A DNA stretch of 37,041 bases, taken from Peptococcaceae bacterium. Its GTDB lineage: Bacteria; Bacillota; Desulfitobacteriia; Desulfitobacteriales; Syntrophobotulaceae. The stretch lies in the NCBI GenBank assembly GCA_009783315.1, contig WRHI01000020.1, positions 1 to 37,041 of the forward strand, in the 5' to 3' direction. The notes under the pieces were generated by a model. It was not told the DNA's origin. It ran no database searches and was given only the letters and a program-made list of their open reading frames with translations. The translations under genes and the position numbers were made by a program. Position 1 is the first letter of the stretch. Each line of letters starts with the position of its first letter. This document shows positions 284-21,659 of this stretch, piece after piece.

Positions 284-745
284 GTGAACATTGAAGTAAC
301 AAATCAAAAATCTCAAATTGCTGTGGCCGTCAAGAAAGAAAACGCGTCAATGGCAGAGATTTCCACATTGGCGACCGCAGGATTGGAAAAAGTCTTGGGG
401 TTTCTTGTAGAGAAGGGCGTAGAGATAGCCGGCGCGCCTTATCTTGCATACACTAACGGTAACGCTGACTTTACTCAATGTGACATTGAATTTGGGATTC
501 CCATTGGCGAAGAAATAGCCATCGATGGAGAGTTCTTTATGAGTAAAACTTTCGAAGGCAGAGCAATCACGGCAATGCACAAAGGGGCATACAAAGATCT
601 TGATGTGGTTTATGCAGCCCTTATGGAGTACATGGCTGAAAACAAATTGGAGTCAACAGGCGTATATTATGACTATTACATCAGCAATCCTTTGGATACG
701 CCGGAGGGCGAACTTCTGACACAGGTGATATTCCCTCTAAAATAG
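284..745 (+). CDS. GyrI-like / AraC effector-binding-domain protein
   Basis: The 153-residue product matches the stand-alone GyrI-like small-molecule-binding fold: an early beta strand with VAV, the central FGIPIGEEI segment (usual form 'vGxpv') and a late alternation of YYDYYISNP with a LLTQVIFPL strand. Family members bind small amphipathic or cationic compounds, and some protect DNA gyrase from toxins; the ligand here is unknown. There is no DNA-binding domain, so it is not a full regulator. The GTG start at 284 is preceded by AGGAGG with normal spacing. It stands alone, with a 141 bp gap before the RadC-like gene in which I recognise nothing. Family call fairly sure, function not. Confidence 0.75.
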   Translation: MNIEVTNQKSQIAVAVKKENASMAEISTLATAGLEKVLGFLVEKGVEIAGAPYLAYTNGNADFTQCDIEFGIPIGEEIAIDGEFFMSKTFEGRAITAMHKGAYKDLDVVYAALMEYMAENKLESTGVYYDYYISNPLDTPEGELLTQVIFPLK

Positions 746-886: not shown

Positions 887-1510
887 ATGGATAAGATGAT
901 GCCACGAGAAAAACTGGCCAAGTACGGAGCAAGCAATCTTAGTGATGCAGAGCTGCTGCACCTCTTGATTGGCAGCGGCAACAAACAGGTCTCGGCAGAA
1001 GAAATCTCGAAGCAGATTTTGAAGCTACTGAAAGACAAGGGCAGCTCGGTTACATACAGCGAGCTGTCATACATCAAAGGCATGGGTGCCGCCAAGACGA
1101 GTGAAATCATCGCGCTGTTTGAACTTGGCAGAAGGTATTTGATGCCCGCCGACAGGCCAGTAATTTCAAACGCAGATGACGCAGTTGCCCAGCTCGGCAA
1201 CATCCGGGATAAGAAGCAAGAATATTTCGTTGTGCTAACCTTGGATGGAGCAAACCGCCTAATTAGTAACACCGTTGTGTTTCAGGGGACGCTAAATCAA
1301 AGCTTGGTTCATCCAAGAGAAATCTTTGCCAAGGCAATCGAAGACAGAGCAGCAAATATTATCGTTGCGCACAACCATCCAAGCGATAGTGCCGAGCCGT
1401 CAGCCGACGACATCGAGATAACGAGCAAACTCAAAGAAGCCGGACGGCTAATGGGCATCAACGTACTTGAACACATCATTGTCTCGAAAACAGAGTACAA
1501 GAGCATCTAA
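887..1510 (+). CDS. radC: RadC-family JAMM/MPN+ domain protein
   Basis: The 207-residue protein begins PREKLAKYGASNLSDAELL, the usual RadC N-terminal UPF0758 helix region, continues with a helix-hairpin-helix-like IKGMGAAKTSEIIALFELG segment, and ends in a JAMM metalloprotease-like domain. The metal-binding motif is intact as HNHP followed by SADD (HxH-x7-SxxD). RadC proteins are common on mobile and defence islands; despite the name a DNA-repair role is not established. It is slightly shorter than usual (about 220-230 residues) because both ends are trimmed. A TATAAT lies only 6 bp before the first ATG (875-880), so translation may instead start at the ATG at 896 or 899, giving MMPREKL. Confidence 0.85.
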   Translation: MDKMMPREKLAKYGASNLSDAELLHLLIGSGNKQVSAEEISKQILKLLKDKGSSVTYSELSYIKGMGAAKTSEIIALFELGRRYLMPADRPVISNADDAVAQLGNIRDKKQEYFVVLTLDGANRLISNTVVFQGTLNQSLVHPREIFAKAIEDRAANIIVAHNHPSDSAEPSADDIEITSKLKEAGRLMGINVLEHIIVSKTEYKSI

Positions 1511-1538: not shown

Positions 1539-1633
1539 AATAATCCGTAATTTTGAAAAATTACATTTTCCACTTGACAAGCACGGTGAGTGTGGTATAC
1601 TGAGGATGTAATTTTAGAAAGGCACGGATTATT
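1539..1633. repeat. Inverted repeat flanking the hsd promoter
   Basis: Two 28 bp arms (1539-1566 and 1606-1633) face each other. Their outer 10 bp (AATAATCCGT against ACGGATTATT) and inner 10 bp (AAAATTACAT against ATGTAATTTT) match perfectly, with a poorly matching 8 bp middle. The left arm also contains a perfect short palindrome GTAATTTT-GA-AAAATTAC at 1547-1564. The 39 bp between the arms carry the promoter of the restriction locus. The layout suits operator sites for a regulator; a flip of the segment is the more adventurous reading. Confidence 0.7.
1574..1601 (+). promoter_or_regulatory. Sigma-A type promoter of the restriction-modification locus
   Basis: A perfect -35 TTGACA (1574-1579), a 16 bp spacer and a -10 TATACT (1596-1601) lie 32 bp before the first gene of the restriction locus. 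It is the best promoter match in the accessory region and is framed by the inverted repeat described separately. Confidence 0.75.
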
Positions 1634-2209
1634 ATGATGCAAATGCTAGAGGTAGCCGAACTAAATAGCGGTACGCCTCAGTTCCGAATCAAGGAATCCC
1701 TGAACGCCGACGCGCCGACGTATTTCTTCTTTGGTCAGCCTGAAATGGAAGATGACCTGACTGGAATAGAAACGCACGGTGGCAGCGGAAAACAGATTCG
1801 GACATCCGACAACGTAGCCACTCTGAGCAGTGGGGATTTAGTGTTCAGTCTAATCTCCGGTAAGGCCACGCTTGTAAGGAACAGCCACAGCGGGTATTTG
1901 TTCACCCAGAACTATGTGAGGCTCGCTCCTGCCCCGCAGGTTGATGCCGGATACCTTGTCTATATGCTCAACGAGGATGCTGGCATCAAGCGCCAACTGC
2001 AAACCACGAGCCAAGGCTCAGTCACTCTGAAATTCACAATCAGGCAGCTCAGCGATTTGCTATTCCCTATCCCGCCGCCAATAGAAAGACAGCGAGTAAT
2101 TGGCGAGTTGTATTTCAATCAGCTTAGGCTGGCCGCACTGAAAAAACGCGTCGCTGCAGCAGAGGCCACGCTGCTAATAGAAAAGCTCAAGGAGGCGAAT
2201 AAGTCATGA
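1634..2209 (+). CDS. Half-size type I restriction specificity (HsdS-like) protein
   Basis: The 191-residue product resembles one target-recognition domain plus one spacer helix of HsdS: a short N-terminal strand region, then GDLVFSLISGKATLV, NYVRLAPA, DAGYLVYMLN, GSVTLKFTIRQLSDLLFPIPPPIERQRVIG and a long terminal helix (LKKRVAAAEATLLIEKLKEA). The 'xLxxLxxPxPPxxEQ' step is the typical exit from a target-recognition domain. Its sequence differs from the three other hsdS copies in the locus and it lacks their shared boundary repeats, so it has a separate origin. The stop codon overlaps the start of hsdR by 4 bp (ATGA), implying coupled translation. It may dimerise to act as a specificity subunit or be an accessory; the data do not decide. 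Start at 1634 or the next ATG at 1637. Confidence 0.7.
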   Translation: MMQMLEVAELNSGTPQFRIKESLNADAPTYFFFGQPEMEDDLTGIETHGGSGKQIRTSDNVATLSSGDLVFSLISGKATLVRNSHSGYLFTQNYVRLAPAPQVDAGYLVYMLNEDAGIKRQLQTTSQGSVTLKFTIRQLSDLLFPIPPPIERQRVIGELYFNQLRLAALKKRVAAAEATLLIEKLKEANKS

Positions 2210-5200
2210 ACGAAAACCAATTTGAAACAGAACTCATCCAGTACATTTGCAGCGGAACAATCACCAGCTCCGTAGAGCCTGAGTGGGGTTCGGTGAAACA
2301 GACGGCAGGTTACATCGTCAAGACCAAGCTGTGGAAGTATGAGCCGGAAATCAAGACGACCGAGCAACTCTGGGATAATTTCAAGCGGATACTGGAACAG
2401 CACAACCAGAACACGCTTGACCACCCCCTCAGCACGGTCGAGTTCAATCAGGTCAAGCGGATTATTTCCGACCTACAAACGCCTTATAAAGCCGGGCAGT
2501 TCCTCTATGGCATGAACGGCGTTTCTCAGATTGAGGTTGACTTGGATGACGGTCGCCACGCCTTCCTCACGGTCTTTGACCAGAAGCAAATCGGAGCCGG
2601 GGATACGGTCTATCAGGTCGTAAACCAGATTGAGCGCCCGGCGGTGATTACGGGTAAACAGAGCCGCCGTTTTGACACAACCCTTCTCATAAACGGATTG
2701 CCGATAATCCAGATTGAAGAGAAGCGCGACACGCACGATGTCAACGAAGCCCTCAACCAAATGCACCAGTACATCGACGAGAATCAGTACCGAGACATCT
2801 TCTCCACGGTGCAAATTTTGGTCGCCATCACGCCGAACAATGTCAAGTACATGGCCAACACGACGGCAGAGACCTTCAACAAGGACTTCGCCTTCAACTG
2901 GCAGCGCAAAAGCGACAACGAGATAGTGCGTAACTGGAAAGAGTTTGCGAATTCGATGCTCTCGATACCGATGGCGCACCAGATGGCCACCAACTACATG
3001 ATTCTGGATGGCACGAAGAACAAGCAGAGCCTAAAAGTAATGCGCCCCTATCAGGTCTATGCCACCCAAAACGCGATTGACGGATTGAAGCAGGTGGACT
3101 TTGACCTTGGCACAAACAAAGTCGGCTACATCTGGCACACCACTGGCTCCGGCAAGACTATCACCAGCTTCAAGACGGCATGGCTGGCAAGCCGTATGCC
3201 CAGGATAGACAAGGTGGTGTTCTTGGTAGACCGCATCGCTCTCACAAGACAGACCAACGAGAATTACAAAGCCTACGACCCGGACGCATCCGAGGATGCG
3301 CTTGGAAGCGTTCAGGACACCGAGAACACGACAGACCTCAGCCGCAAGTTGAAATCCAAGGATAACAGCATCATCGTCACATCGGTGCAGAAGCTCGACA
3401 AACTGATTAAGCGCAAGTCGTTCAAGCCTCCTGAGAAGAACATCGTCTTCATCGTGGATGAAGCGCATCGCTCGACAGGCGGCGATTCATTCAGCGCCAT
3501 CCAAAAGGCGTTCAAACACGCGGCATGGGTGGGCTACACGGGAACACCGGCCTTTGACGAGGTCACCCAGGGATTCAGGACAGAAGACATCTTCGGGAAA
3601 CTTCTCCATGCCTACACGATACGCGAGGCCATCGCCGACAGGAACGTGCTCGGCTTCAAGGTGGACTTTGAGACCACGATTGACGAGACGGATATGAAGG
3701 AGCGTTTCCTTCCTCAGTTCTATCGTGAGCAAAACCCGAAATGGTCGGACGAGAAGATTAAGTACAAGATTGCCAACATGACGCAGGAGGACATGGACGA
3801 CGCGGTTGAGGCGAGTTTTTACGACGAGAACCCAGACCATATCAAACTGGTCGTTGCGGACATCTTTGCAAACTGGCGCAACCGCTCAAACGAGGGCAGG
3901 TACAACGCCCTGTTCACCACGCACGTCGGCGGTGGCAAGGCAAGCACCCCTATGGCACTCATGTATTTCAAAGAGTTCCAGCGCGTGAACGCCGAGAACA
4001 AGGCAGAAGGCAAACCTACGCTGAAAGTCGCCGTCACTTTCAGCCAAAACACAACAAACAACGACAGCCAACTCACAACAAACCAAGGTCTGCATTATGC
4101 CATCCAAGCCTACAACAAAGAGTTTGGCATGAACTTCGGCATGGACGACGTTTCCGGCTACACGCAGAACGTTTCATCACGGCTGAACAAGACGGCCAGC
4201 GACAAAGTATATCTGGATATTGTGATTGTAGTTGACCAGCTCTTGACGGGCTTTGATGCCCCGGAACTCAACACGCTTTATGTTGACCGCACCTTAAAAG
4301 GAGCCGGGTTGATTCAGGCGTACTCACGCACAAACCGCATCGCCGATATGCAGGAGAAGCCGTGGGGTCGCATTGTCAATTATCGCTGGCCAGCCCAAAA
4401 TGAAAAGCTCATGAATCAGGCCTTGGCAGTTTACGCAAACAAGGATTCAGCCAATCTATCCGAGGCTGAACTCGTCGAGCAAAACGTCTCGGACGGCATT
4501 ACCGCACCAAAGTTTAAGGACGTATTCGAAACCGTAAAGAGCAAGGTCGAGAAGCTGGCCGAGCTGACAAATGAATTCACGAAGCTGCCGCCATCTGAGA
4601 AGCAAAAAGACTTTATGCTCGACTTGCTCAGGGAGTACAACATCGGCATGGCGAAGTTGAAACAATATGACCCGGCTGAGAGCGGCGAGGGATTTGACTA
4701 CGACAACCCCGATGAGTTAACCAAGGCTTTGGGCATGACCCCGGAGCAAGAAGTGATGTTGACCACCGTCTTGACCAATGAACTCAAAACCCACATCGCC
4801 AAAGAGAAGAAGATTCCGCTTTACCAGGTTGAGCTGCGTATGACGCACATCAAGGACGTCAAGATAGACTTCGACTATCTGACCGAGCTGGTCGAGCAAC
4901 TGCTCAATCAGGTACACGATGGCAAGACAGAGGCGGCTAAGGAGACGCAGGACAAGATTAACCAGTTCGCCAACGGTCTGGATGACAGGAACTACGCGAC
5001 GCGCATCATCAATGCCGCAGTTGCTATTGTCAAAGGGCTTTTCCCGCCGGAGGGTTCCGGGTTGAAGTATCCGTTCAAACTGGACGATAGCGAGAAGGTT
5101 ATCCTTGAAGCAAACAATGTCAGCTTGGACAGGACTTTTCTGGACTTCCGCGTCAAATGGGGTATCGCAGACGTTATCACGAGCGCACAGATGCGCGAGC

Positions 5201-5394
5201 TGTTCAGCCGTCATCACTATGGGCAGCAAGACCTTGATGACACCGGGCAGATACGCGACATCATCGCCAACGCAAGCGGTACTTACCAGACCCTGGCTCA
5301 CGATGCAGAAGTGCAAGGTCTGACAAAGATAAAATATCGCAATAGCCTACGCGAAGCGATTTATGAATTAGCCGACGAACTGGCAGAAAGCTAA
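2206..5394 (+). CDS. hsdR: Type I restriction enzyme, endonuclease/translocase subunit R
   Basis: The 1062-residue protein has the full HsdR layout. The N-terminal PD-(D/E)xK nuclease shows RFDTTLLINGLPIIQIEEKRD, with the Asp and ExK catalytic residues near 150-170. The SF2 helicase motor starts with HTTGSGKT (Walker A, about residue 311), has DEAHRS (motif II, about 418), the YTGTPAF motif III region near 445 and a RecA-like second half with QLLTGFDAPELNTLYVD and QAYSRTNR. A helical C-terminus follows for docking to the methylase core. With HsdM and HsdS it makes the DNA-translocating restriction complex that cuts foreign unmodified DNA. It is intact, overlaps the upstream half hsdS by 4 bp and lies 11 bp before hsdS. 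Confidence 0.96.
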   Translation: MNENQFETELIQYICSGTITSSVEPEWGSVKQTAGYIVKTKLWKYEPEIKTTEQLWDNFKRILEQHNQNTLDHPLSTVEFNQVKRIISDLQTPYKAGQFLYGMNGVSQIEVDLDDGRHAFLTVFDQKQIGAGDTVYQVVNQIERPAVITGKQSRRFDTTLLINGLPIIQIEEKRDTHDVNEALNQMHQYIDENQYRDIFSTVQILVAITPNNVKYMANTTAETFNKDFAFNWQRKSDNEIVRNWKEFANSMLSIPMAHQMATNYMILDGTKNKQSLKVMRPYQVYATQNAIDGLKQVDFDLGTNKVGYIWHTTGSGKTITSFKTAWLASRMPRIDKVVFLVDRIALTRQTNENYKAYDPDASEDALGSVQDTENTTDLSRKLKSKDNSIIVTSVQKLDKLIKRKSFKPPEKNIVFIVDEAHRSTGGDSFSAIQKAFKHAAWVGYTGTPAFDEVTQGFRTEDIFGKLLHAYTIREAIADRNVLGFKVDFETTIDETDMKERFLPQFYREQNPKWSDEKIKYKIANMTQEDMDDAVEASFYDENPDHIKLVVADIFANWRNRSNEGRYNALFTTHVGGGKASTPMALMYFKEFQRVNAENKAEGKPTLKVAVTFSQNTTNNDSQLTTNQGLHYAIQAYNKEFGMNFGMDDVSGYTQNVSSRLNKTASDKVYLDIVIVVDQLLTGFDAPELNTLYVDRTLKGAGLIQAYSRTNRIADMQEKPWGRIVNYRWPAQNEKLMNQALAVYANKDSANLSEAELVEQNVSDGITAPKFKDVFETVKSKVEKLAELTNEFTKLPPSEKQKDFMLDLLREYNIGMAKLKQYDPAESGEGFDYDNPDELTKALGMTPEQEVMLTTVLTNELKTHIAKEKKIPLYQVELRMTHIKDVKIDFDYLTELVEQLLNQVHDGKTEAAKETQDKINQFANGLDDRNYATRIINAAVAIVKGLFPPEGSGLKYPFKLDDSEKVILEANNVSLDRTFLDFRVKWGIADVITSAQMRELFSRHHYGQQDLDDTGQIRDIIANASGTYQTLAHDAEVQGLTKIKYRNSLREAIYELADELAES

Positions 5395-5405: not shown

Positions 5406-6626
5406 ATGAGCGAGAACAAAAGTAATGTACCCAAACTGAGATTCCCCGAATTCACTGACGCTTGGGAACAGCGGAGGCTCTCGGGGCTTGCGGATTTCTC
5501 AAAGGGTTCGGGATACTCAAAGGGCGATTTGCGTGAGGCTGGAACGCCTATAATTCTCTATGGGCAGCTCTACACAAAATATGAGACTGTCATTTCCGAA
5601 GTAAGCACGTTCGTCACCGAGAGAGAAAACTCTGTTTTCAGCAAAGGCGGCGAGGTCATCGTTCCTGCCTCCGGCGAGACCGCAGAGGATATTTCTCGCG
5701 CCACAGTTGTTGAAAATGCAGGGATTATCTTGGGTGGCGACCTGAATGTCCTAAAAGCCAAGCCTGAACTTGACCCTGCTTTTTTAGCAATCACGATTTC
5801 CAACGGAACACAGCAGAAGGAGTTATCAAAGAGAGCGCAAGGAAAATCTGTCGTACATCTTCACAACTCTGATTTGCAAGAAGTCTGGCTCCGCTATCCG
5901 AAACTGAACGAGCAAAAGAAAATCCGCTCTTTCTTTGTCGGTCTCGACCACCTCATCACCCTTCATCAGCGTAAGTTAGGACACCTGCAAGAGCAGAAGA
6001 CAGGTCTGCTCCAAAAAATGTTTCCGAAGGATGGAGCCGACGTACCAGAGATTCGCTTCCCCGAATTTGCTGACGCTTGGGAACAGCGGAAGCTTGGGGA
6101 CGTGACGAAATCATATTCAGGAGGAACGCCGGCAGTAGGGAATGGCGAATACTACGGAGGACAGATTCCTTTCATTCGCTCTGCTGAAATCAATAGTGAA
6201 AGCACAGAGTTGTTTCTTACTGACAGTGGTCTTGCGAACTCGTCTGCGAAGATGGTGAGTGTTGGTGATATTCTTTATGCGTTATATGGTGCGACCAGCG
6301 GAGAGGTCGGAATAGCCCAATTACAGGGTGCAATCAATCAGGCGATACTTGCAATTAAACCTGATGATGCTTACGATTCTCAATTCATCATGCAATGGCT
6401 ACGTGGTCAGAAACAAAAAATTATCGACAAATATCTGCAGGGTGGACAAGGCAATCTCTCCGGCTCGTTAGTCAAAGATCTGCCTATGCAAGTTCCGATA
6501 CATGATGAACAACAGAAAATCGGCTCGCTGTTCAGCGACCTCGACAACCTCATCACCCTTCATCAGCGTAAGCTAGAACACCTGCAAGAGCAGAAGAAAG
6601 CCTTGCTCCAACAAATGTTTATCTAA
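5406..6626 (+). CDS. hsdS: Type I restriction enzyme specificity subunit S, full length
   Basis: The 406-residue protein has the classic two-fold HsdS structure. A first boundary motif FPEFTDAWEQR (about residues 13-23) precedes target-recognition domain 1, then the central helix with LDHLITLHQRKLGHLQEQ. A second FPEFADAWEQR (about 217-228) precedes domain 2 and a terminal helix with LDNLITLHQRKLEHLQEQ. Each domain reads one half of a bipartite DNA site. The repeated helices and boundary motifs are also nearly identical at the DNA level and recur in the two downstream half copies, so domains can be exchanged by recombination. This is the only copy with both halves, and is presumably the expressed specificity gene. 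The order R-S-M is less common than R-M-S or M-S-R. Confidence 0.95.
   Translation: MSENKSNVPKLRFPEFTDAWEQRRLSGLADFSKGSGYSKGDLREAGTPIILYGQLYTKYETVISEVSTFVTERENSVFSKGGEVIVPASGETAEDISRATVVENAGIILGGDLNVLKAKPELDPAFLAITISNGTQQKELSKRAQGKSVVHLHNSDLQEVWLRYPKLNEQKKIRSFFVGLDHLITLHQRKLGHLQEQKTGLLQKMFPKDGADVPEIRFPEFADAWEQRKLGDVTKSYSGGTPAVGNGEYYGGQIPFIRSAEINSESTELFLTDSGLANSSAKMVSVGDILYALYGATSGEVGIAQLQGAINQAILAIKPDDAYDSQFIMQWLRGQKQKIIDKYLQGGQGNLSGSLVKDLPMQVPIHDEQQKIGSLFSDLDNLITLHQRKLEHLQEQKKALLQQMFI
5442..5479 (+). repeat. Domain-boundary repeat N, copy 1 (hsdS domain 1)
   Basis: A 38 bp stretch encoding FPEFxDAWEQR matches 6057-6094 at 35 of 38 positions. Its core GCTTGGGAACAGCG (from 5460) recurs at 8926-8939 and, inverted, at 10957-10970. 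Confidence 0.85.
5944..5973 (+). repeat. Central-helix repeat C, copy 1 (inside hsdS)
   Basis: The 30 bp encode the LDHLITLHQR(K) helix start. The same 30 bp recur at 9446-9475 in the same direction and at 10478-10507 inverted, with a one-mismatch copy at 6541-6570. Confidence 0.9.
6057..6094 (+). repeat. Domain-boundary repeat N, copy 2 (hsdS domain 2)
   Basis: Second copy of the FPEFxDAWEQR-coding repeat, 35 of 38 identical to 5442-5479. It marks the entry to the second target-recognition domain. Confidence 0.85.
6541..6570 (+). repeat. Central-helix repeat C, copy 2 (hsdS C-terminus)
   Basis: A 30 bp repeat encoding the LDNLITLHQR helix start, one base different from 5944-5973. Confidence 0.88.
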
Positions 6627-6642
6627 GAAAGGAACTATTGCA

Positions 6643-8223
6643 ATGAGTAATTTACAGACAATCTCTTCAAAGCTCTGGGCGATGGCTAACGAACTCCGTG
6701 GCAACATGGATGCCGCTGAATACAAGAACTACATTCTGGCCTTCATGTTCTACCGTTACCTGTCAGACCATCAGGAGCAGTATCTCGTAAAGAACAACGT
6801 CATCGACGTTCCGGCAGGTCAAACGGTCAACCAAGCCTATTTGGAACAAGCCAATGAGGACGATTTGAGCGACTACCTGGAAGACATTTCTTCAAGCCTT
6901 GGCTACGCCATAGTCCCGCACGACACTTGGCAGTCCCTGATTCACAAAATCGACAACAGCATGGTCGTGCCGAGCGACTACCAGGCCATTTTCGACAACT
7001 TCAACAAGAACGCCGAGTTGAACAAGGAAGCCTCGCAGGATTTCAGGGGCGTGTTCAACGATGTCAACCTTGGGGATTCACGCCTTGGGTCATCCACAAA
7101 CGAACGCGCCAAGTCACTCAACCGCATCGTGAAGCTGGTGAATGGAATCGACTACAAGAGCGACGACGGCAAGGACATCCTCGGAACCATCTATGAATAC
7201 CTGATTGGCCAGTTTGCCGCATCTGCCGGAAAGAAAGGCGGAGAGTTCTACACACCACACGAAGTGAGCGAAATCCTCTCGAAAATCGTAACCCTGGATA
7301 AAGAGAAGACAGGTGCCTTCTTCAATGTATATGACCCCACCATGGGTTCCGGCTCGCTTCTGCTCACCGTTGGACAGGCATTGCCAAGCGGCCAGCCTAT
7401 CAAGTTCTACGGCCAGGAACTGAACACAACGACGTACAACCTTGCTCGAATGAACCTGATGATGCACGGGGTATCCTTCAACAACATGACCCTCTCGAAT
7501 GCGGATACGCTTGAAAGCGACTGGCCGGACGGCAAGGATGCCAAAGGAATAGACCGCCCCCGCTCCTTTGACGCGGTTGTCGCCAATCCACCTTACTCAG
7601 CCCATTGGGACAACGCGGAATCCAAGCTCAAAGACCCGCGTTTCCAAAACTACGGCAAGCTGGCACCCAAGACAAAGGCAGACTACGCTTTTATTCTGCA
7701 CAGCCTCTATCACCTTAACGAAGAAGGCACAATGGCTATCGTCCTGCCTCACGGTGTGTTGTTCCGTGGAGCCGCCGAAGGAACTATCAGACAAATCATC
7801 ATCGAGAAGAACTATCTGGATGCTGTGATTGGGCTTCCTGCAAACATCTTCTATGGAACCAGTATCCCCACCACGGTTTTGGTCTTCAAGAAGAACAGGA
7901 AGACCAAAGACATCCTGTTCATTGATGCCTCTGGCGAGTTCGAGAAGGTCAAGAACCAGAACCGTTTGAAGCCAGAGAACATTGATAAGATTGTTGAGAC
8001 ATACAAGCAGCGTGAAGACGTTGAAAAGTATGCCCACGTTGCTTCGCTTGATGAAATCAAGACCAACGACTTCAACCTCAACATCCCGCGCTACGTCGAT
8101 ACCTTCGAACAAGAGGAAGAAATCGACTTGGTCGAGATAAAGAATCTCATTGATGCGGACAAACAGCAAATTGCAGAGCTTGAAGCCACCATCGCCGAGC
8201 AATTGAAGATTCTGGGCATATAG
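6643..8223 (+). CDS. hsdM: Type I restriction-modification methyltransferase subunit M
   Basis: The 526-residue N6-adenine methylase has the N-terminal helical HsdM domain (from LQTISSKLWAMANELRGNMDAAEYKNYILAFMF), the SAM-binding motif I DPTMGSGSLLL (about residue 230) and the catalytic motif IV NPPY at 315-318. The partner-facing GEFYTPHEVSEIL precedes motif I. Length is normal. It pairs with HsdS to methylate the locus-specific site and with HsdR to restrict. The ATG follows AAGGAA and lies 16 bp after hsdS, so it is co-transcribed. The C-terminus ends in a coiled helix (DADKQQIAELEATIAEQLKIL) expected to clasp HsdS. Confidence 0.96.
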   Translation: MSNLQTISSKLWAMANELRGNMDAAEYKNYILAFMFYRYLSDHQEQYLVKNNVIDVPAGQTVNQAYLEQANEDDLSDYLEDISSSLGYAIVPHDTWQSLIHKIDNSMVVPSDYQAIFDNFNKNAELNKEASQDFRGVFNDVNLGDSRLGSSTNERAKSLNRIVKLVNGIDYKSDDGKDILGTIYEYLIGQFAASAGKKGGEFYTPHEVSEILSKIVTLDKEKTGAFFNVYDPTMGSGSLLLTVGQALPSGQPIKFYGQELNTTTYNLARMNLMMHGVSFNNMTLSNADTLESDWPDGKDAKGIDRPRSFDAVVANPPYSAHWDNAESKLKDPRFQNYGKLAPKTKADYAFILHSLYHLNEEGTMAIVLPHGVLFRGAAEGTIRQIIIEKNYLDAVIGLPANIFYGTSIPTTVLVFKKNRKTKDILFIDASGEFEKVKNQNRLKPENIDKIVETYKQREDVEKYAHVASLDEIKTNDFNLNIPRYVDTFEQEEEIDLVEIKNLIDADKQQIAELEATIAEQLKILGI

Positions 8224-8245
8224 ACGGACACGCTGCGGAGGAGCA

Positions 8246-8821
8246 ATGATAGAGATTGATATTGAAAAAATCTGGGCTGACTGCCTCGATGCGATGGGCA
8301 TTAACCATCCACATTCGTTCGATGCGGTGGTTGCCGACATTCGGTTCGGCAAAGGGATGTCTTGGGACAACAGCAAGTCAAGGATGAAAGGCCCGCGATT
8401 CAAGGATTATGGGAAACTCGCGCCAAAAGGAACCCCGGACTATGCCTTCGTTCTGCACAGCTTATATCACCTCAACGAAGAAGGAACAATGGCAATGGTT
8501 CTGCCTCATGGCGTACTGTTCCGTGGGAAAGCCGAAGGAACCATCTGTGAGAATCTGTTTAAGCAGCCCAGCGGAAACAAGATTCACGCCGTGATAAGAT
8601 TGCCGGAGAATATCTTGTTCTCAGAAAAGGGGAGGAAATCTGTTGCAGTTATTATTGTCGTCTTCAAAAAGAAGCGCGACACGGACGACAATCTTTTCAT
8701 TGATGCCAGCAACGATTTTATGAGGGGCAAGAACAAAAACTACCTAACCACAGAACATATCCAGATAATTGTTGATGCCGCCCTTAATGCCTTGGGCGTT
8801 GAGCAGGATGTTAGTAGGTAA
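8246..8821 (+). CDS. Truncated HsdM-like protein lacking the catalytic motif
   Basis: The 191-residue product aligns with HsdM from about its residue 305 to the start of its C-terminal part. It shares FDAVVA, KDYGKLAPK, DYAFVLHSLYHLNEEGTMAMVLPHGVLFRGKAEGTI and LFIDAS. It has no HsdM N-terminal domain and no SAM motif I, and where the real enzyme has NPPY it has DIRF at residues 31-34, so it should not methylate. The reading frame is nevertheless intact, with a GGAGG site 5 bp before its ATG, 22 bp after hsdM. It is probably a duplicated fragment; a structural or regulatory role by binding HsdS-like proteins is possible but unproven. Confidence 0.8.
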   Translation: MIEIDIEKIWADCLDAMGINHPHSFDAVVADIRFGKGMSWDNSKSRMKGPRFKDYGKLAPKGTPDYAFVLHSLYHLNEEGTMAMVLPHGVLFRGKAEGTICENLFKQPSGNKIHAVIRLPENILFSEKGRKSVAVIIVVFKKKRDTDDNLFIDASNDFMRGKNKNYLTTEHIQIIVDAALNALGVEQDVSR

Positions 8822-8826
8822 GCGCG

Positions 8827-9525
8827 GTGCCGATAGAAGTTGAGGCCTCAATAATCCATAATCGCATAATGACTGCAAACCAAAACCACGAGCCAGGAGT
8901 ACGTTTCTCCGGCTCGTTTACTTTCGCTTGGGAACAGCGTCGGTTTGATGAAGTCTTTAGCCCGATACCAAACAACACTCTGTCAAGGGCAGATTTGAAT
9001 TACGATGACGGCAAGATAAAGAGCGTTCACTATGGCGACATCCTCATTAAATACGGAGCAGTAGTGGACTGTCGTATAGATGTGATTCCGTTCATAACTG
9101 GAGCCGAGCCATTGGACTACAAGAGCCTAATTCTGCAAAATGGCGACGTGCTTATCGCCGACGCTGCCGAAGATGAAACTGTCGGAAAAGCTACTGAAAT
9201 AGCAGGGATTACGGACATTCCTGTCGTGTCAGGATTGCATACAATCGCTTACAGACCGAAGGTGAAAATGAAGCCAAACTATCTTGGTTACTATATGAAC
9301 TCGCCTTCGTACCATAGCCAATTACTGCCGCTTATGCAGGGTATCAAAGTCCTCTCAATCAGTCGGACGAACCTCGCAAAGACGACCGTATTCTATCCGG
9401 CGGCGGAGCAGGAACAGGCGCAGATTGGACAGCTTTTCGTCGGTCTCGACCACCTCATCACCCTTCATCAGCGTATGCCTTGTGATTCAGGTTTTGATGA
9501 GTACAAGGAGGACGAAATATGTTGA
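8827..9525 (+). CDS. Half-size HsdS, single target-recognition domain (cassette)
   Basis: The product (232 residues from GTG 8827, or 218 from ATG 8869, which looks the more natural start) has the FAWEQRR boundary motif, one target-recognition domain and the start of the central helix (LDHLITLHQR). It then breaks off into an unrelated tail, MPCDSGFDEYKEDEIC. The break falls exactly in repeat C, so the gene is a recombination product or donor. Its end overlaps the recombinase start by 7 bp. It may supply a domain to hsdS or work as a half subunit that dimerises. Confidence 0.85.
   Translation: MPIEVEASIIHNRIMTANQNHEPGVRFSGSFTFAWEQRRFDEVFSPIPNNTLSRADLNYDDGKIKSVHYGDILIKYGAVVDCRIDVIPFITGAEPLDYKSLILQNGDVLIADAAEDETVGKATEIAGITDIPVVSGLHTIAYRPKVKMKPNYLGYYMNSPSYHSQLLPLMQGIKVLSISRTNLAKTTVFYPAAEQEQAQIGQLFVGLDHLITLHQRMPCDSGFDEYKEDEIC
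8923..8939 (+). repeat. Domain-boundary repeat N, copy 3
   Basis: The 17 bp TTCGCTTGGGAACAGCG is repeated exactly in inverted orientation at 10957-10973, so the 2 kb between the two copies could invert. Confidence 0.85.
9446..9480 (+). repeat. Central-helix repeat C, copy 3 (left arm of inverted pair)
   Basis: This 35 bp arm matches the inverted arm at 10473-10507 at 34 of 35 positions. The two arms enclose the recombinase gene. Confidence 0.92.
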
Positions 9526-10445
9526 ATCAAACAAAAGGGTCAGAATTTTTCAGTCAATACTACGCTCGGTGGATTAAGGTCTACAAGGAAGGTGCAATCA
9601 GGAACGTCACAATGCAGAAGTACCTGATGACGCAGGTTTGGATTGAAAAGTTGGTTCCCAATCTCTTGACCTGCGAGCTGTCGAGGACGAACTACCAGCA
9701 ACTGCTCAATGACTACGCCGAATGCCACGAGAGGCAGACGACGATGGACTTCCACCACCAGTTGAAGGGTGCCATCTTGGACGCAGTGGACGAGGGGCTG
9801 ATTGACCGCGACCCGACGCGCAAGGCCATCATCAAGGGCAAGAACCCGCGAGAGAAGAAACCGAAGTACCTGAATCAGTTTGAGCTTCACACGCTGCTTT
9901 CGGGCATGGAGTTGAAGCCTGTGGTGAATTGGGAGTGGTTCATCTTGCTCGTCGCCAAGACGGGTATGCGCTTCTCGGAGGCTTTGGCCTTGACCCCGAA
10001 GGACTTCGACTTTGCCCATCAGTCATTGTCCATCAGCAAGACGTGGGACTACAAGGGCGACGGTGGCTTCCTGCCCACCAAGAACCAGTCGTCTGTGCGC
10101 AAAATCCAGATTGACTGGCAGACCGTTATCCAGTTCTCGGAGCTTATGAGGAACCTGCCACCGGAAGTGCCGATTTTCGTTGACGGCGCGGTCTTCAACT
10201 CAACGGTGAACGACATCCTGCGCCGTCATTGTATCCGAGCAAAAGTCCCGGTGATTTCGATTCACGGGCTGCGCCACACCCACGCCTCGCTACTCTTGTT
10301 TGCGGGTGTGTCGATTGCGAGCGTCGCGCGAAGGCTCGGTCACGCGAGCATGACCACGACCCAGAAGACGTACCTGCACATCATCCACGAGCTTGAAAAC
10401 CAAGACGTGGAACTGGTGATGAGGTCGCTATCCGGGTTGAGCTGA
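9519..10445 (+). CDS. Tyrosine site-specific recombinase (hsdS invertase-type)
   Basis: The 308-residue protein has an N-terminal SAM-like core-binding domain and a C-terminal catalytic domain. The latter shows the first Arg in TGMRFSEAL, HGLRHTHASLL (His-x-x-Arg), LGHASMTTTQ (second His) and the Tyr nucleophile in KTYLHI. AAGGAGG precedes the ATG at 9519. Its position inside a type I restriction locus, between inverted hsdS repeats, is that of CreX/PsrA-like enzymes that shuffle specificity domains in other Firmicutes. The substrate repeats are inferred from position. It lacks features of an element-integrating phage integrase such as adjacent att sites or an excisionase gene. Confidence 0.9.
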   Translation: MLNQTKGSEFFSQYYARWIKVYKEGAIRNVTMQKYLMTQVWIEKLVPNLLTCELSRTNYQQLLNDYAECHERQTTMDFHHQLKGAILDAVDEGLIDRDPTRKAIIKGKNPREKKPKYLNQFELHTLLSGMELKPVVNWEWFILLVAKTGMRFSEALALTPKDFDFAHQSLSISKTWDYKGDGGFLPTKNQSSVRKIQIDWQTVIQFSELMRNLPPEVPIFVDGAVFNSTVNDILRRHCIRAKVPVISIHGLRHTHASLLLFAGVSIASVARRLGHASMTTTQKTYLHIIHELENQDVELVMRSLSGLS

Positions 10446-10979
10446 ACCTACACGGTTCCAGAGACTTACACGAGGCGTACGCTGATGAAGGGTGATGAGG
10501 TGGTCGAAAGACATGAACGCTTCTCCGATATACTTCTGCTCGGTAGAACTTGGATACAGAAAACTCATTTCAGAGAAATCGTCATAGCTGATACTGCGCC
10601 CGTCACGGATTCCGTAGGTCACAGTTTCGAGCCGCTTGACGAAGCTCCTGGAGCTGAAAATGTATTTCCAGAACAAATCATCGTGGCTTTCCTTGTCGAT
10701 GAAATCAAGCACCGTATAAGCCGGAGACGTGATTCCTTCAACATTTGAGTGGGCGAAACCACCTTGAAATGAGCGTAGATGAATTACGAACTGCCCCGGC
10801 AAAACTCGTTTGTAAGTTGCCTCGTTTTTCTTGTTGTGGGCGATGTTGATTCCTGTGTCCTCGCGCAGAATCATTCCTCTGTCTTGCGTCGCAGAAAGAA
10901 CGGGCAATTCTGGGTAGCCTTTATCAGCCGTTGTCTTGAAAATATCGACTGCCTTCCGCTGTTCCCAAGCGAATGGCAT
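10428..10979 (-). CDS. Inverted half-size HsdS (silent specificity cassette)
   Basis: Read on the minus strand, this 183-residue frame starts MPFAWEQRK (boundary motif), holds one target-recognition domain (with TYGIRDGRSISYDDFSEMSFLYPSSTEQKYIGEAF) and ends FDHLITLHQR plus a short foreign tail. No ribosome binding site precedes the ATG, and the frame converges on the recombinase with 18 bp of overlap. It is thus best seen as an unexpressed store of a different recognition domain. Its two ends carry the same repeats as hsdS and the 8827 copy, but inverted, so inversion could place it behind an active 5' end. Confidence 0.85.
   Translation of the reverse strand: MPFAWEQRKAVDIFKTTADKGYPELPVLSATQDRGMILREDTGINIAHNKKNEATYKRVLPGQFVIHLRSFQGGFAHSNVEGITSPAYTVLDFIDKESHDDLFWKYIFSSRSFVKRLETVTYGIRDGRSISYDDFSEMSFLYPSSTEQKYIGEAFMSFDHLITLHQRTPRVSLWNRVGSAQPG
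10473..10507 (-). repeat. Central-helix repeat C, copy 4 (right arm of inverted pair)
   Basis: Reverse complement of 9446-9480 with one mismatch. The left 5 bp (AGGCG, 10473-10477) are shared only with copy 3 and not with the hsdS copies. Confidence 0.92.
10957..10973 (-). repeat. Domain-boundary repeat N, copy 4
   Basis: Exact 17 bp inverted match to 8923-8939, encoding the FAWEQR boundary of the inverted cassette. Confidence 0.85.
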
Positions 10980-19093: not shown

Positions 19094-21659
19094 AAGGTGT
19101 AACATCGATTGATCCCGATTGCGCCAACACAATAAAAGCATCGGCCAGATGGGGATCAAACTGACTTCCCGCCTTCTCCCTGATCTCATGCAGGGCATAA
19201 TCCAAGGAACAGGCGGTACGATACGGCCGGGTCGACATCATCGCGTCAAAGGAATCGGCAATCGATAAACAACGGGCTGAAATCGGTATGTCTTCTCCAC
19301 AGATACCGCGAGGATAGCCGGCGCCGTCCCAAAATTCGTGATGCCCGATCACCGCCGGCAGCACATACTGCAGTGTAGGCAAATGCTTAATAATCGTCAC
19401 CGACATATCCACATGTCGCCGCATGACTTCCAACTCTTCCTCATTTAATCGCCCCACTTTTTTCAGAATTTCTTCAGGAATACCGATTTTCCCGATATCA
19501 TGGAGCAACGCCGCTTCCTTGATTGACTTAATATGCCAATCGTCCAGACCGATGGCCGCGGCCAACGCCGAAGCGTACTGCGCCACCTTCTGGGAATGTC
19601 CGTATGTATAGTAGTCCTTGGTTTCGATCGTAGCGGTAAGGGCAAAAATCGTTGACGCATGGGAAACAAGCTCGTTGCCGGGAACCGTCAGCCAAAAGAT
19701 TTCCTCCTCCTCCTCTTGCTTTTGAGGCAAAGCCAAGCTCGGCCCATAGACAACAATCCTATTCTTGCCGGAATTCTTTGCGGAATAAAGGGCAATATCA
19801 GCCCGCCTTAACAACTCTTCGCCGCTGGGCGCGGCGGCCGGATACGTGCAAATCCCCGCGCTGATGCTGAGAAACCGGTTCTCGGCACCTGTTCCGCCGC
19901 TAAACATACGTTGTACCTCTTGTCGGATGTTTTCTGTTAAGGCCTCGGTCTGCTTAGCATCATGCCTCGGCAACAGAATCACAAACTCCTCCCCGCCATA
20001 GCGGGCCACCACCCCTTGTTTCGCCACACGCTCCGTCAAAATCTCCGCAACCGTTTCCAGAGCTTTATCCCCCTCCAAATGACCATACATATCATTATAA
20101 AGCTTAAACATATCTAAATCCAGCAACACCAGCGAAAGGGGGCTCTCCTCTGCTTCATCAATGAGCTTTCTCAGCACCCGATAAAAATAGCGGTGATTAT
20201 ACAGACCTGTCAAAGAATCCGTATTGGCTTCATTCTTAGCCCTCTCATAAGAAAACGCGTTGTCCAGAGCCACCGCTGTTGACCCTCCCAGCGACAACAA
20301 CAAATCCAGATCCTCCATCGTGAAAGCGGACTCATCTTGCTTCTTCGCCAGAATCAACATTCCGATCATTCGGCTGCGGCTTTGCAGCGGCGCCACCAGC
20401 TCCAGATCAATATCGTTAATCAGTTCCCATTCCGCCTCCCATAGCGCCTTGAAGACAGGCTGTTTCTCAATCTCCTCTCGTTTGAGGCAAGTGTTGTTCT
20501 GATGCAGCCAGGTTAGAATAGGGTGGTCCTCAGCAAAAGCATACTTTTGTCCGTTTACGAGCGCCCCCTCACTGAAGGCTCTGCTGTTAATCGCGTATTC
20601 CCTCTTCTCTTCATCATAAAGCGCCAGATAGACATCGCGAACACGCAAGACGTTCTTGACAGCCTCAATAAAAGTTTGGGTAATCTCATCCAGCCCCAGC
20701 TTGCTGGCCAGACTGACGCTGAAATCCCGTAACCATTGCCGCTGCTGATACTCTGTCGCCATAAACATCTTATCAATATTCTGATTGAATTTGCTGAACC
20801 CAGCGTTGAAAATCAGCAACGCCAGAATAATCATAACCGGCATAATATAGTACAAAGAATCCGAATAGTCATTCGCTCTCAACAACGCCTCCACTTTGAT
20901 CGCGGCATAGACGTAAACAATCGCGATTACCTCAATAAAAAAGAGCAACACGCCGCCCTTCTTGAAAATAAACTTAAACTCCAGAACACGATATTTGGAA
21001 ACAGCCACAATAACACAAACAGCGTTGAACAGCCCCGCGATCATGTCTATCGGATACCGGCCGCCCCAAAACACACAATTCAGGATAAAACAAGTCAAAA
21101 AAGCCGCGTTCCCCACAAAAACAAGCTTAATACCGCCGGCCAAAGTGTTGTCCCGTAAACCCTTAAGGCTGACCACAAACGAGGAAACAAGCAGCAACAC
21201 CATGTAGAGAAGCAAAAAACCCGCGCCCCAGCCCAAATGGCTGTCAAACATTTTAACCGCCGCTTCCAGCCCATTAATCTCTTGGTTCACTTCATAAACA
21301 ACCGGATGCAGAATAACAAAGCCGGCAAAATTAAGCACCAGGCAAACGGCGACCCCGCCCAAAGCCAAACGCGTCAAAACCCGATGAGAAACGCCGCTGA
21401 AACTTGTCAAGAAAAAATGGACAACTAAGGGCAGCAGCACCAACACAGCCACCATAACCCTGTTCCAGAATATGGCGCCGGGGTCGAACCCCGCTCGCAT
21501 AAAAAAAGTAGAAAGCACCCACAACCCATGAAGGACAAACATCGCAATGACAATCTTAATAATTCTGTCCCGGCGCGAGAACGTCAAGAAAAACACCAGC
21601 AAACCATATCCGGTCGCCGCCATAATGTATAAACCCCAGAGTATGCTTTGTGTGTTCAT
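19083..21659 (-). CDS. Membrane 7TM-GAF-GGDEF-HD-GYP cyclic-di-GMP protein
   Basis: 858 residues from the ATG at 21659. About 230 residues of N-terminal membrane helices resemble the seven-helix sensor of histidine kinases, and a further membrane helix follows near 250-280. A GAF-like domain (around 310-470) comes next, then GGDEF with the active RYGGEEFVILLP, and an HD-GYP domain with LLHDIGKIGIP and HHEFWDGAGYP. GGDEF domains make and HD-GYP domains break cyclic-di-GMP. The usual RxxD inhibitory site before GGEEF is replaced by AKQG, so product feedback is probably absent. It sits between the GH3-like gene and pyrG on the same strand. Net activity cannot be read from sequence. Confidence 0.92.
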   Translation of the reverse strand: MNTQSILWGLYIMAATGYGLLVFFLTFSRRDRIIKIVIAMFVLHGLWVLSTFFMRAGFDPGAIFWNRVMVAVLVLLPLVVHFFLTSFSGVSHRVLTRLALGGVAVCLVLNFAGFVILHPVVYEVNQEINGLEAAVKMFDSHLGWGAGFLLLYMVLLLVSSFVVSLKGLRDNTLAGGIKLVFVGNAAFLTCFILNCVFWGGRYPIDMIAGLFNAVCVIVAVSKYRVLEFKFIFKKGGVLLFFIEVIAIVYVYAAIKVEALLRANDYSDSLYYIMPVMIILALLIFNAGFSKFNQNIDKMFMATEYQQRQWLRDFSVSLASKLGLDEITQTFIEAVKNVLRVRDVYLALYDEEKREYAINSRAFSEGALVNGQKYAFAEDHPILTWLHQNNTCLKREEIEKQPVFKALWEAEWELINDIDLELVAPLQSRSRMIGMLILAKKQDESAFTMEDLDLLLSLGGSTAVALDNAFSYERAKNEANTDSLTGLYNHRYFYRVLRKLIDEAEESPLSLVLLDLDMFKLYNDMYGHLEGDKALETVAEILTERVAKQGVVARYGGEEFVILLPRHDAKQTEALTENIRQEVQRMFSGGTGAENRFLSISAGICTYPAAAPSGEELLRRADIALYSAKNSGKNRIVVYGPSLALPQKQEEEEEIFWLTVPGNELVSHASTIFALTATIETKDYYTYGHSQKVAQYASALAAAIGLDDWHIKSIKEAALLHDIGKIGIPEEILKKVGRLNEEELEVMRRHVDMSVTIIKHLPTLQYVLPAVIGHHEFWDGAGYPRGICGEDIPISARCLSIADSFDAMMSTRPYRTACSLDYALHEIREKAGSQFDPHLADAFIVLAQSGSIDVTPYGQ

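Follow-up and report, generated by a model that had tools for sequence, protein, structure and literature searches.

The 37,041-nt stretch analysed here (hereafter the window) carries a type I restriction-modification locus whose first gene, orf191, encodes half an HsdS and is preceded by GyrI-like and RadC genes (Table 1). The part from 5406 to 10979 holds hsdS, hsdS-like fragments, one of them on the minus strand, and a tyrosine recombinase gene. Inverted repeats of 30-33 nt are common to hsdS and the reversed fragment (e.g. 5944-5973 and 10478-10507, 100%), and this part is likely to be an invertible hsdS specificity switch.

Table 1. Genes and promoter-region features of the locus, in window coordinates
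Feature	Position	Strand	Remarks
GyrI-like gene	284-745		
RadC gene	887-1510		
Outer part of the left arm	1539-1546		not seen in relatives
Putative upstream operator O1	1547-1564		GTAATTTTGAAAAATTAC, GTAA-N10-TTAC; ends 9 bp 5' of the -35
-35 hexamer TTGACA	1574-1579	+	promoter prediction
-10 hexamer TATACT	1596-1601	+	spacer 16, extended -10 TG
Putative downstream operator O2	1608-1625		GTAATTTTAGAAAGGCAC; right half degenerate; starts at the predicted +1
Outer part of the right arm	1626-1633		runs up to the start codon; no counterpart seen in relatives
orf191, half-HsdS (HsdS_short-like)	1634-2209	+	one TRD and one long C-terminal helix
hsdR	2206-5394	+	
hsdS, full-length	5406-6626	+	two Methylase_S stretches
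hsdM	6643-8223	+	
Second, partial hsdM	8246-8821		
Tyrosine recombinase gene	9519-10445		between hsdS fragments

The inverted repeat and the product of orf191

The promoter of orf191 is enclosed by two inverted arms of 28 nt (1539-1566 and 1606-1633), which are 82% complementary (23/28) and separated by 39 nt. A sequence-only reading of this DNA had described these arms, and its description holds: the outer 10 nt (AATAATCCGT and ACGGATTATT) and the inner 10 nt (AAAATTACAT and ATGTAATTTT) match in full, the mismatches (18%) all lying in the middle of the arms; the two hexamers that it had placed between them are there, with 11 of 12 consensus matches; and the arm that it had called palindromic is the left one, in which O1 pairs at 8 of 9 positions. 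O2 starts 6 bp after the -10, where we infer the +1 to be, and the right arm would lie inside the predicted transcript. This arm, within O2, also contains the likely Shine-Dalgarno sequence of orf191, AGAAAGG. The right half of O2 is poor in the window's own family, with GGCAC in place of TTAC. Folded as single-stranded RNA, the 95 nt give -30.8 kcal/mol (z -5.54) and none of 200 shuffles did as well, so that the repeat is beyond chance. The window has a second perfect GTAA-N10-TTAC at 20913-20930 (GTAAACAATCGCGATTAC); near-matches to this pattern across the window are at chance level (5 against a shuffle mean of 8).

The product of orf191 has 191 aa and a single Pfam match, a weak one to Methylase_S (PF01420, E 1.1e-4, 22.9 bits for a cut-off of 22). 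Its AlphaFold2 model (pLDDT 89.5) shows a single TRD and, after it, a long helix at 150-190; Esub1 and halves of HsdS are the structures most similar to it. Esub1 (PDB 8vsq, 8vsr) comes on top, with Z 14.2 over 177 aligned residues and an rmsd of 3.4, and the next match is an HsdS-type subunit within 1 of this Z; the profile match to Esub1 has an E of 2.7e-4. In length (about 190 aa), single TRD and single helical region, orf191 corresponds to the proteins described as HsdS_short, and like them it is encoded in a locus that also has a full-length HsdS. Esub1, a streptococcal protein, was crystallised together with Prx, a phage protein; phage proteins might target half-HsdS regulators. We found no paper on Esub1 in the open-access PMC literature.

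Recurrence of the sites beside half-HsdS genes

Half-HsdS genes were collected by protein sequence alone, after the site pattern had been fixed. Matches were obtained in three taxon groups: the order to which a Heyndrickxia belongs (21 of 397 genomes), that of an Enterococcus (27 of 395) and the class of a Lachnospiraceae genome (12 of 391). The 76 upstream regions were thinned to 67 by shared 8-mers, and 16 of these, belonging to the window, exact-pattern and plasmid sets, were left out. This left 51 protein-selected upstream regions, of which 50 are independent, since the 167,860-bp plasmid of L036 is also that of L024, which is among the three loci that had suggested the pattern. In all 18 protein-selected loci that were fetched at larger size, the half-HsdS gene comes with hsdM and a longer hsdS; three gene orders occur among half-HsdS loci.

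At k=10, 19 of the 51 upstream regions have a perfect GTAA-Nk-TTAC, whereas every other k from 4 to 18 gives zero. Sites with no more than one mismatch occur twice or more in 20 of 51 at k=10, against 0-2 at the other spacers. Dinucleotide shuffles gave means at k=10 of 0.22 for the perfect site and 0.26 for two or more sites. In a second test, free of any assumption on the half-site, we counted 18-mers with G...C ends and at least 6 of 9 complementary pairs: at least one occurs in 42 of 51 upstream regions (shuffle mean 6.5, maximum 13), and 25 of 51 have two or more (shuffle mean 0.37, maximum 4); 9 of the 51 have no such palindrome. Upstream of 157 other ORFs from 22 half-HsdS loci, L024 and L054 among them being the same plasmid, at least one 18-mer was found in 23, at least two in 3 and a perfect GTAA...TTAC in 3. 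The two tests replaced a statistic of half-site tetramer agreement over total lengths of 12-26, which had no discriminating value, since nested palindromes in AT-rich DNA score whatever the even length (full score in 22 of 67 at L=14 and 16 of 67 at L=18). Some of the remaining loci have other repeats instead: upstream of the distant half-HsdS genes of L114 and L097 there are TGTTATTTATTACTCATGACA-like direct repeats and TTTCAGCTGAAA palindromes.

A DNA search matched another genome of the same order (L002) over 25 bp only; these correspond to the right arm and directly precede an orf191 homologue that is 54% identical. The leader of family A, TAATTTTAGAAAGGCACG, is found across genera: an exact scan of a species-genome collection of 257 billion bases returned 15 loci, 12 of which precede a half-hsdS gene homologous to orf191. 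About 7 chance hits are estimated for a random 18-mer in this many bases, so that it is the gene context that counts and not the number of hits; the scan was also kept out of the statistics because an exact match selects for the leader. Of the other three hits, two are unrelated (L006 and L017) and one, in a Cohnella (L003, 2790-2807, minus strand), is a decayed locus that lacks half-HsdS, the leader being followed by a short remnant of hsdR. Upstream of the promoter of the 12 half-HsdS genes, 7 loci have a site that departs from GTAA-N10-TTAC at no more than one position and L012 has one with two mismatches; no site was found in L005, L007, L008 and L016, even with two mismatches allowed. The site of L012, GTGCCTTAACAAAATTAC, resembles the asymmetric form of O2 in reverse orientation, from which GTGCC may be a tolerated half-site.

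On plasmids, the half-HsdS gene of a Halobacillus has a clean pair of sites around its promoter (GTAATTCTTTAAAATTAC ... TTGACG ... GTAATTTTAAAGAATTAC), and a GTAA-type pair is likewise found with the half-HsdS genes of Sutcliffiella and Ligilactobacillus plasmids. In Ligilactobacillus salivarius (L022, NZ_CP084926.1, 70897-71454), the half-HsdS gene, an HsdM-like gene and the GTAA-type pair adjoin BREX genes. No GTAA-type pair accompanies the half-HsdS gene of a Leuconostoc conjugative plasmid (L021, NZ_LN890333.1); its neighbours are DNA methylase genes of the cytosine and adenine types, and the 12.5 kb around it contain no annotated HsdM. The search of viral contigs with the leader pattern gave one match, an unrelated one, and that by protein gave none that was confirmed; phages gave no match, and a type D half-HsdS had none among plasmids at 1e-15.

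In the relatives whose upstream regions were inspected, the outer block AATAATCC is absent. Conservation of the arms in related loci, on which the sequence-only reading had made its case depend, is therefore partial: where the promoter is kept, the 18-bp cores are conserved and the outer 10 bp are not. As judged from these relatives, the conserved unit is the 18-bp site and not the 28-bp arm.

These results bear on whether the repeat could be an RNA element or a simple promoter element, be it a hairpin, a radC terminator, an UP element or a translational leader. In an RNA reading through from upstream, the arms would pair as a strong hairpin and hide the ribosome-binding site; the upstream site is about where an UP element would lie, and the recurrence of the family-A leader across genera would also suit an element of this kind. 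However, the upstream site stands 5' of the -35 and hence beyond the transcript of the operon itself, 1450-1700 contains no predicted terminator-like site, and 1480-1800 has no Rfam match up to an E of 5. Moreover, in many loci the two sites share their half-sites and the 18-bp span, as expected for a dimeric protein. We thus regard an RNA or simple promoter element as very unlikely.

Covariation with half-HsdS and geometry of the sites

The half-site differs from one half-HsdS subfamily to another, the 18-bp span remaining constant. The half-sites are GTTA, GCTA or GATA in L045, L047 and L049, and GAAA or GTAA with ATAT in L044, L048, L050 and L082, all of them spanning 18 bp. The staphylococcal plasmid HsdS_short operons L072, L074 and L075, which were picked by accession as named in PMC10030836, have GTAG-N10-CTAC twice upstream, again over 18 bp. 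In the 8 loci of family B, the median identity is 77% for half-HsdS and 38% for full HsdS, and 7 of them keep a near-constant operator pair. The 7 loci of family D have variable operators, with identities of 80% for HsdM and 39% for half-HsdS. The more alike two half-HsdS proteins are, the better their half-sites agree (rho 0.42, Mantel p 0.001, n=48), in a test that does not correct for shared ancestry and from which six palindromes judged unrelated by eye had been removed. Taken together, the two families and the Mantel test indicate that it is half-HsdS that the sites track, not HsdM or full HsdS.

As a control, we took the best 30 matches of one HsdM search, which have directly upstream a half-HsdS gene in 11 cases, a full-length HsdS gene in 6 and neither (none within 700 bp on the same strand) in 13. 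One of the last (L137), with the end of an hsdS gene upstream, was dropped, which left 12 controls with an HsdM 46-90% identical to the query. Neither a GTAA-type pair nor a perfect site was found in any of the 12, and a single site with one mismatch to GTAA-N10-TTAC occurs in one. In the half-site-free test over 200 bp, 2 of 12 had at least one 18-mer and 1 of 12 at least two, with unrelated half-sites. Two of these controls (L118 and L119) have an HsdM 88-90% identical to that of the half-HsdS-bearing Halobacillus operon.

One could also assume that the sites bind an unrelated regulator, from the host or from a neighbouring gene, and that half-HsdS is downstream by chance; the GyrI-like and RadC genes upstream of the window's repeat could suggest as much. 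Against this, half-HsdS occurs in three taxon groups and three gene orders with 18-bp sites in 42 of 51 upstream regions, the GTAA-type pair is missing from all 12 loci with a related HsdM and no half-HsdS upstream, and the half-site changes along with half-HsdS. An unrelated regulator is, in our opinion, clearly improbable.

The position of the upstream site relative to the promoter is also constrained. Among the 45 loci with an upstream site, 34 have a TTG 8-12 bp after it, only the gene strand having been searched; the offsets peak at 10 (14 loci), against about one TTG per offset in the 45 loci from 13 to 44, and a TAnnnT peak is seen at offset 33. The other 11 loci depart from this rule, with a TTG at 1-3 bp in L049, L072, L085, L086, L092 and L112. 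In the staphylococcal L072, where the nearest TTG is 2 bp after the upstream site, this site lies within a longer palindrome that is maybe the hsdR terminator. The position of the downstream site varies, its start being roughly 2-20 bp after the -10, a range that is approximate because some of the automatic promoter calls are wrong (e.g. L047, L092 and L110). The distance between the two sites is 55-88 (n=31) and shows no helical phasing (R 0.07-0.09 for distances entered by hand), which disfavours a strict loop.

This geometry also bears on the other proposal of the sequence-only reading, a very small invertible promoter whose 39 bp would flip between the arms. Inverted arms around a promoter and a tyrosine recombinase gene in the same locus would both be in keeping with it. 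Nevertheless, the arms are 18% mismatched instead of near-identical, their outer blocks were not seen in relatives, in which only the 18-bp core is conserved, and the recombinase gene is flanked by hsdS fragments with other inverted repeats in common. In 34 of 45 loci the promoter would moreover have the same orientation, a TTG following the upstream site at 8-12 bp on the gene's strand, the one searched. We give inversion of the promoter next to no credence.

Half-HsdS as a candidate regulator of its own operon

The sequence comparison, through the conservation of the sites, their 18-bp span, their pairing, the upstream geometry in most loci, the covariation of half-site and half-HsdS and the absence of the GTAA-type pair from 12 loci with no half-HsdS upstream, suggests that the inverted repeat is an operator pair that recurs beside most half-HsdS genes. 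The pair of operators for a controller protein that the sequence-only reading had put forward as its first possibility is thereby backed, and the controller would probably be half-HsdS itself, the product of the first gene downstream. We consider it likely that half-HsdS regulates its own operon, either by itself or together with HsdM, and the best reading of these loci is that it would work like the controller protein of a type II system, built from a TRD.

We propose that two copies of half-HsdS would pair like the halves of a normal HsdS and that the pair would read a symmetric bipartite site of 18 bp, half-site-N10-half-site. One such site would stand just 5' of the -35 at a near-fixed distance and the other at or after the +1. 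As half-HsdS accumulates, alone or HsdM-bound, the sites would become occupied and set the expression of the operon. The downstream site would block initiation or promoter clearance, and the upstream one, because its spacing to the -35 is fixed, probably contacts or displaces parts of the RNA polymerase, activation being slightly favoured. A fixed upstream site together with a loosely placed downstream one would be expected if the former contacts or competes with RNA polymerase and the latter simply blocks it.

HsdM may be a partner in DNA binding, since for EcoKI neither S nor M is reported to bind DNA alone (PMC3874165); the promoter would then be tied to the level of HsdM. HsdS_short of Staphylococcus xylosus is required for full methylation in E. 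coli, where it was expressed from a foreign promoter, and it has been proposed to stabilise the complex; adding it back from a pET3a plasmid to hsdMS strains was toxic (PMC10030836). Being needed for full methylation from a foreign promoter, HsdS_short would have a role besides autoregulation.

A different use of the same sites would be as methylation targets of an HsdM2(half-HsdS)2 complex, the promoter being switched by adenine methylation of the operators and not by their occupancy. Several points are consistent with this: half-HsdS keeps the HsdS fold in the predicted model, it lies directly upstream of hsdM in 11 of the best 30 HsdM-selected loci, GTAA/TTAC offers adenines on both strands, and palindromes are recognised and methylated in type IC systems by HsdM together with a truncated HsdS (PMC3874165). 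On the other hand, PacBio data of E. coli strains CM56, CM5 and CM13, which carry S. xylosus hsdS_short-hsdM-hsdS_long, are described in the available part of PMC10030836 with nothing like GTAG-N10-CTAC, a negative result to be read with the caution that such sites are few per genome and can be missed by motif finders. The motifs given there are the asymmetric ones of the long HsdS, dam, the motif of a co-expressed type II system (CM13) and one low-fraction motif called 'noise' by the authors, and the main text, as far as available, holds no GTAG or CTAC string (PMC10030836). Control by methylation of the operators seems to us unlikely.

A more complete picture, whose chances we put slightly below even, is that a widespread family of type I loci of Bacillota, and also of BREX-linked ones, carries a controller of its own: dimers of half-HsdS, possibly with HsdM, would bind an 18-bp site at two places, the upstream one activating and the downstream one shutting off the promoter, and the output of the operon would thereby be tied to free half-HsdS or to its HsdM complex.

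Our search of titles and abstract openings in the open-access PMC literature found no report of half-HsdS operators. If autoregulation by half-HsdS is true, TRDs would be a class of DNA-binding domain of bacterial transcription factors, re-targetable by TRD divergence, and type I systems would have a built-in controller as type II systems have C proteins. The binding site of each half-HsdS could then be read from its own promoter, which would provide a training set for the rules of TRD recognition. The role of the short HsdS is left unsettled in the available parts of PMC10030836 and PMC12429846, and the sites described here allow a simple binding and reporter test.

A parallel can be drawn with several known systems. 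The C protein of type II systems is the product of a small gene in the restriction-modification operon, with operators beside its own promoter through which it activates and represses; C proteins are small HTH proteins. The logic of orf191 would be the same, with conserved putative sites that flank the half-hsdS promoter, but the protein is a TRD-helix half-HsdS in a type I system. Orf191 does not have the HTH fold of a C protein, its model being that of an HsdS half and Methylase_S its only Pfam match.

RptR is another first-gene regulator of type I operons, which represses its own promoter from repeated palindromes (PMC12255303). It differs in being an unrelated helical protein of 79 aa that acts at 6-bp TAGCTA sites over the -10, in Gammaproteobacteria (PMC12255303); orf191, a 191-aa HsdS half with no TAGCTA in 1539-1633, is not an RptR.

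Close to orf191 is HsdS_short of the S. xylosus hsdRSMS system, which also has 191 aa and one TRD, is conserved and stands beside a full-length HsdS; it is described for its role in methylation, and operators or autoregulation are absent from the available part of its description (PMC10030836). HsdS_IA of the Bacillus licheniformis BlihIA system is likewise a truncated single-TRD HsdS adjoining a full HsdS. Its role was left open and regulation by hybrid dimers was speculated, meaning subunit exchange and not transcription, with no promoter sites described in the part of the paper available (PMC12429846).

Finally, homodimers of truncated HsdS are known to read palindromes such as GAA N7 TTC and TCA N8 TGA (PMC3874165). 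In EcoR124I delta50, EcoDXXI delta-C and delta-N and NgoAV, half an HsdS reads an interrupted palindrome; the spacers of these enzymes are N5-N8, against N10 here, and their function is the specificity of methylation and restriction (PMC3874165). The 18-bp symmetric sites that the comparison shows upstream of half-hsdS genes are candidates for a bipartite site of this kind.
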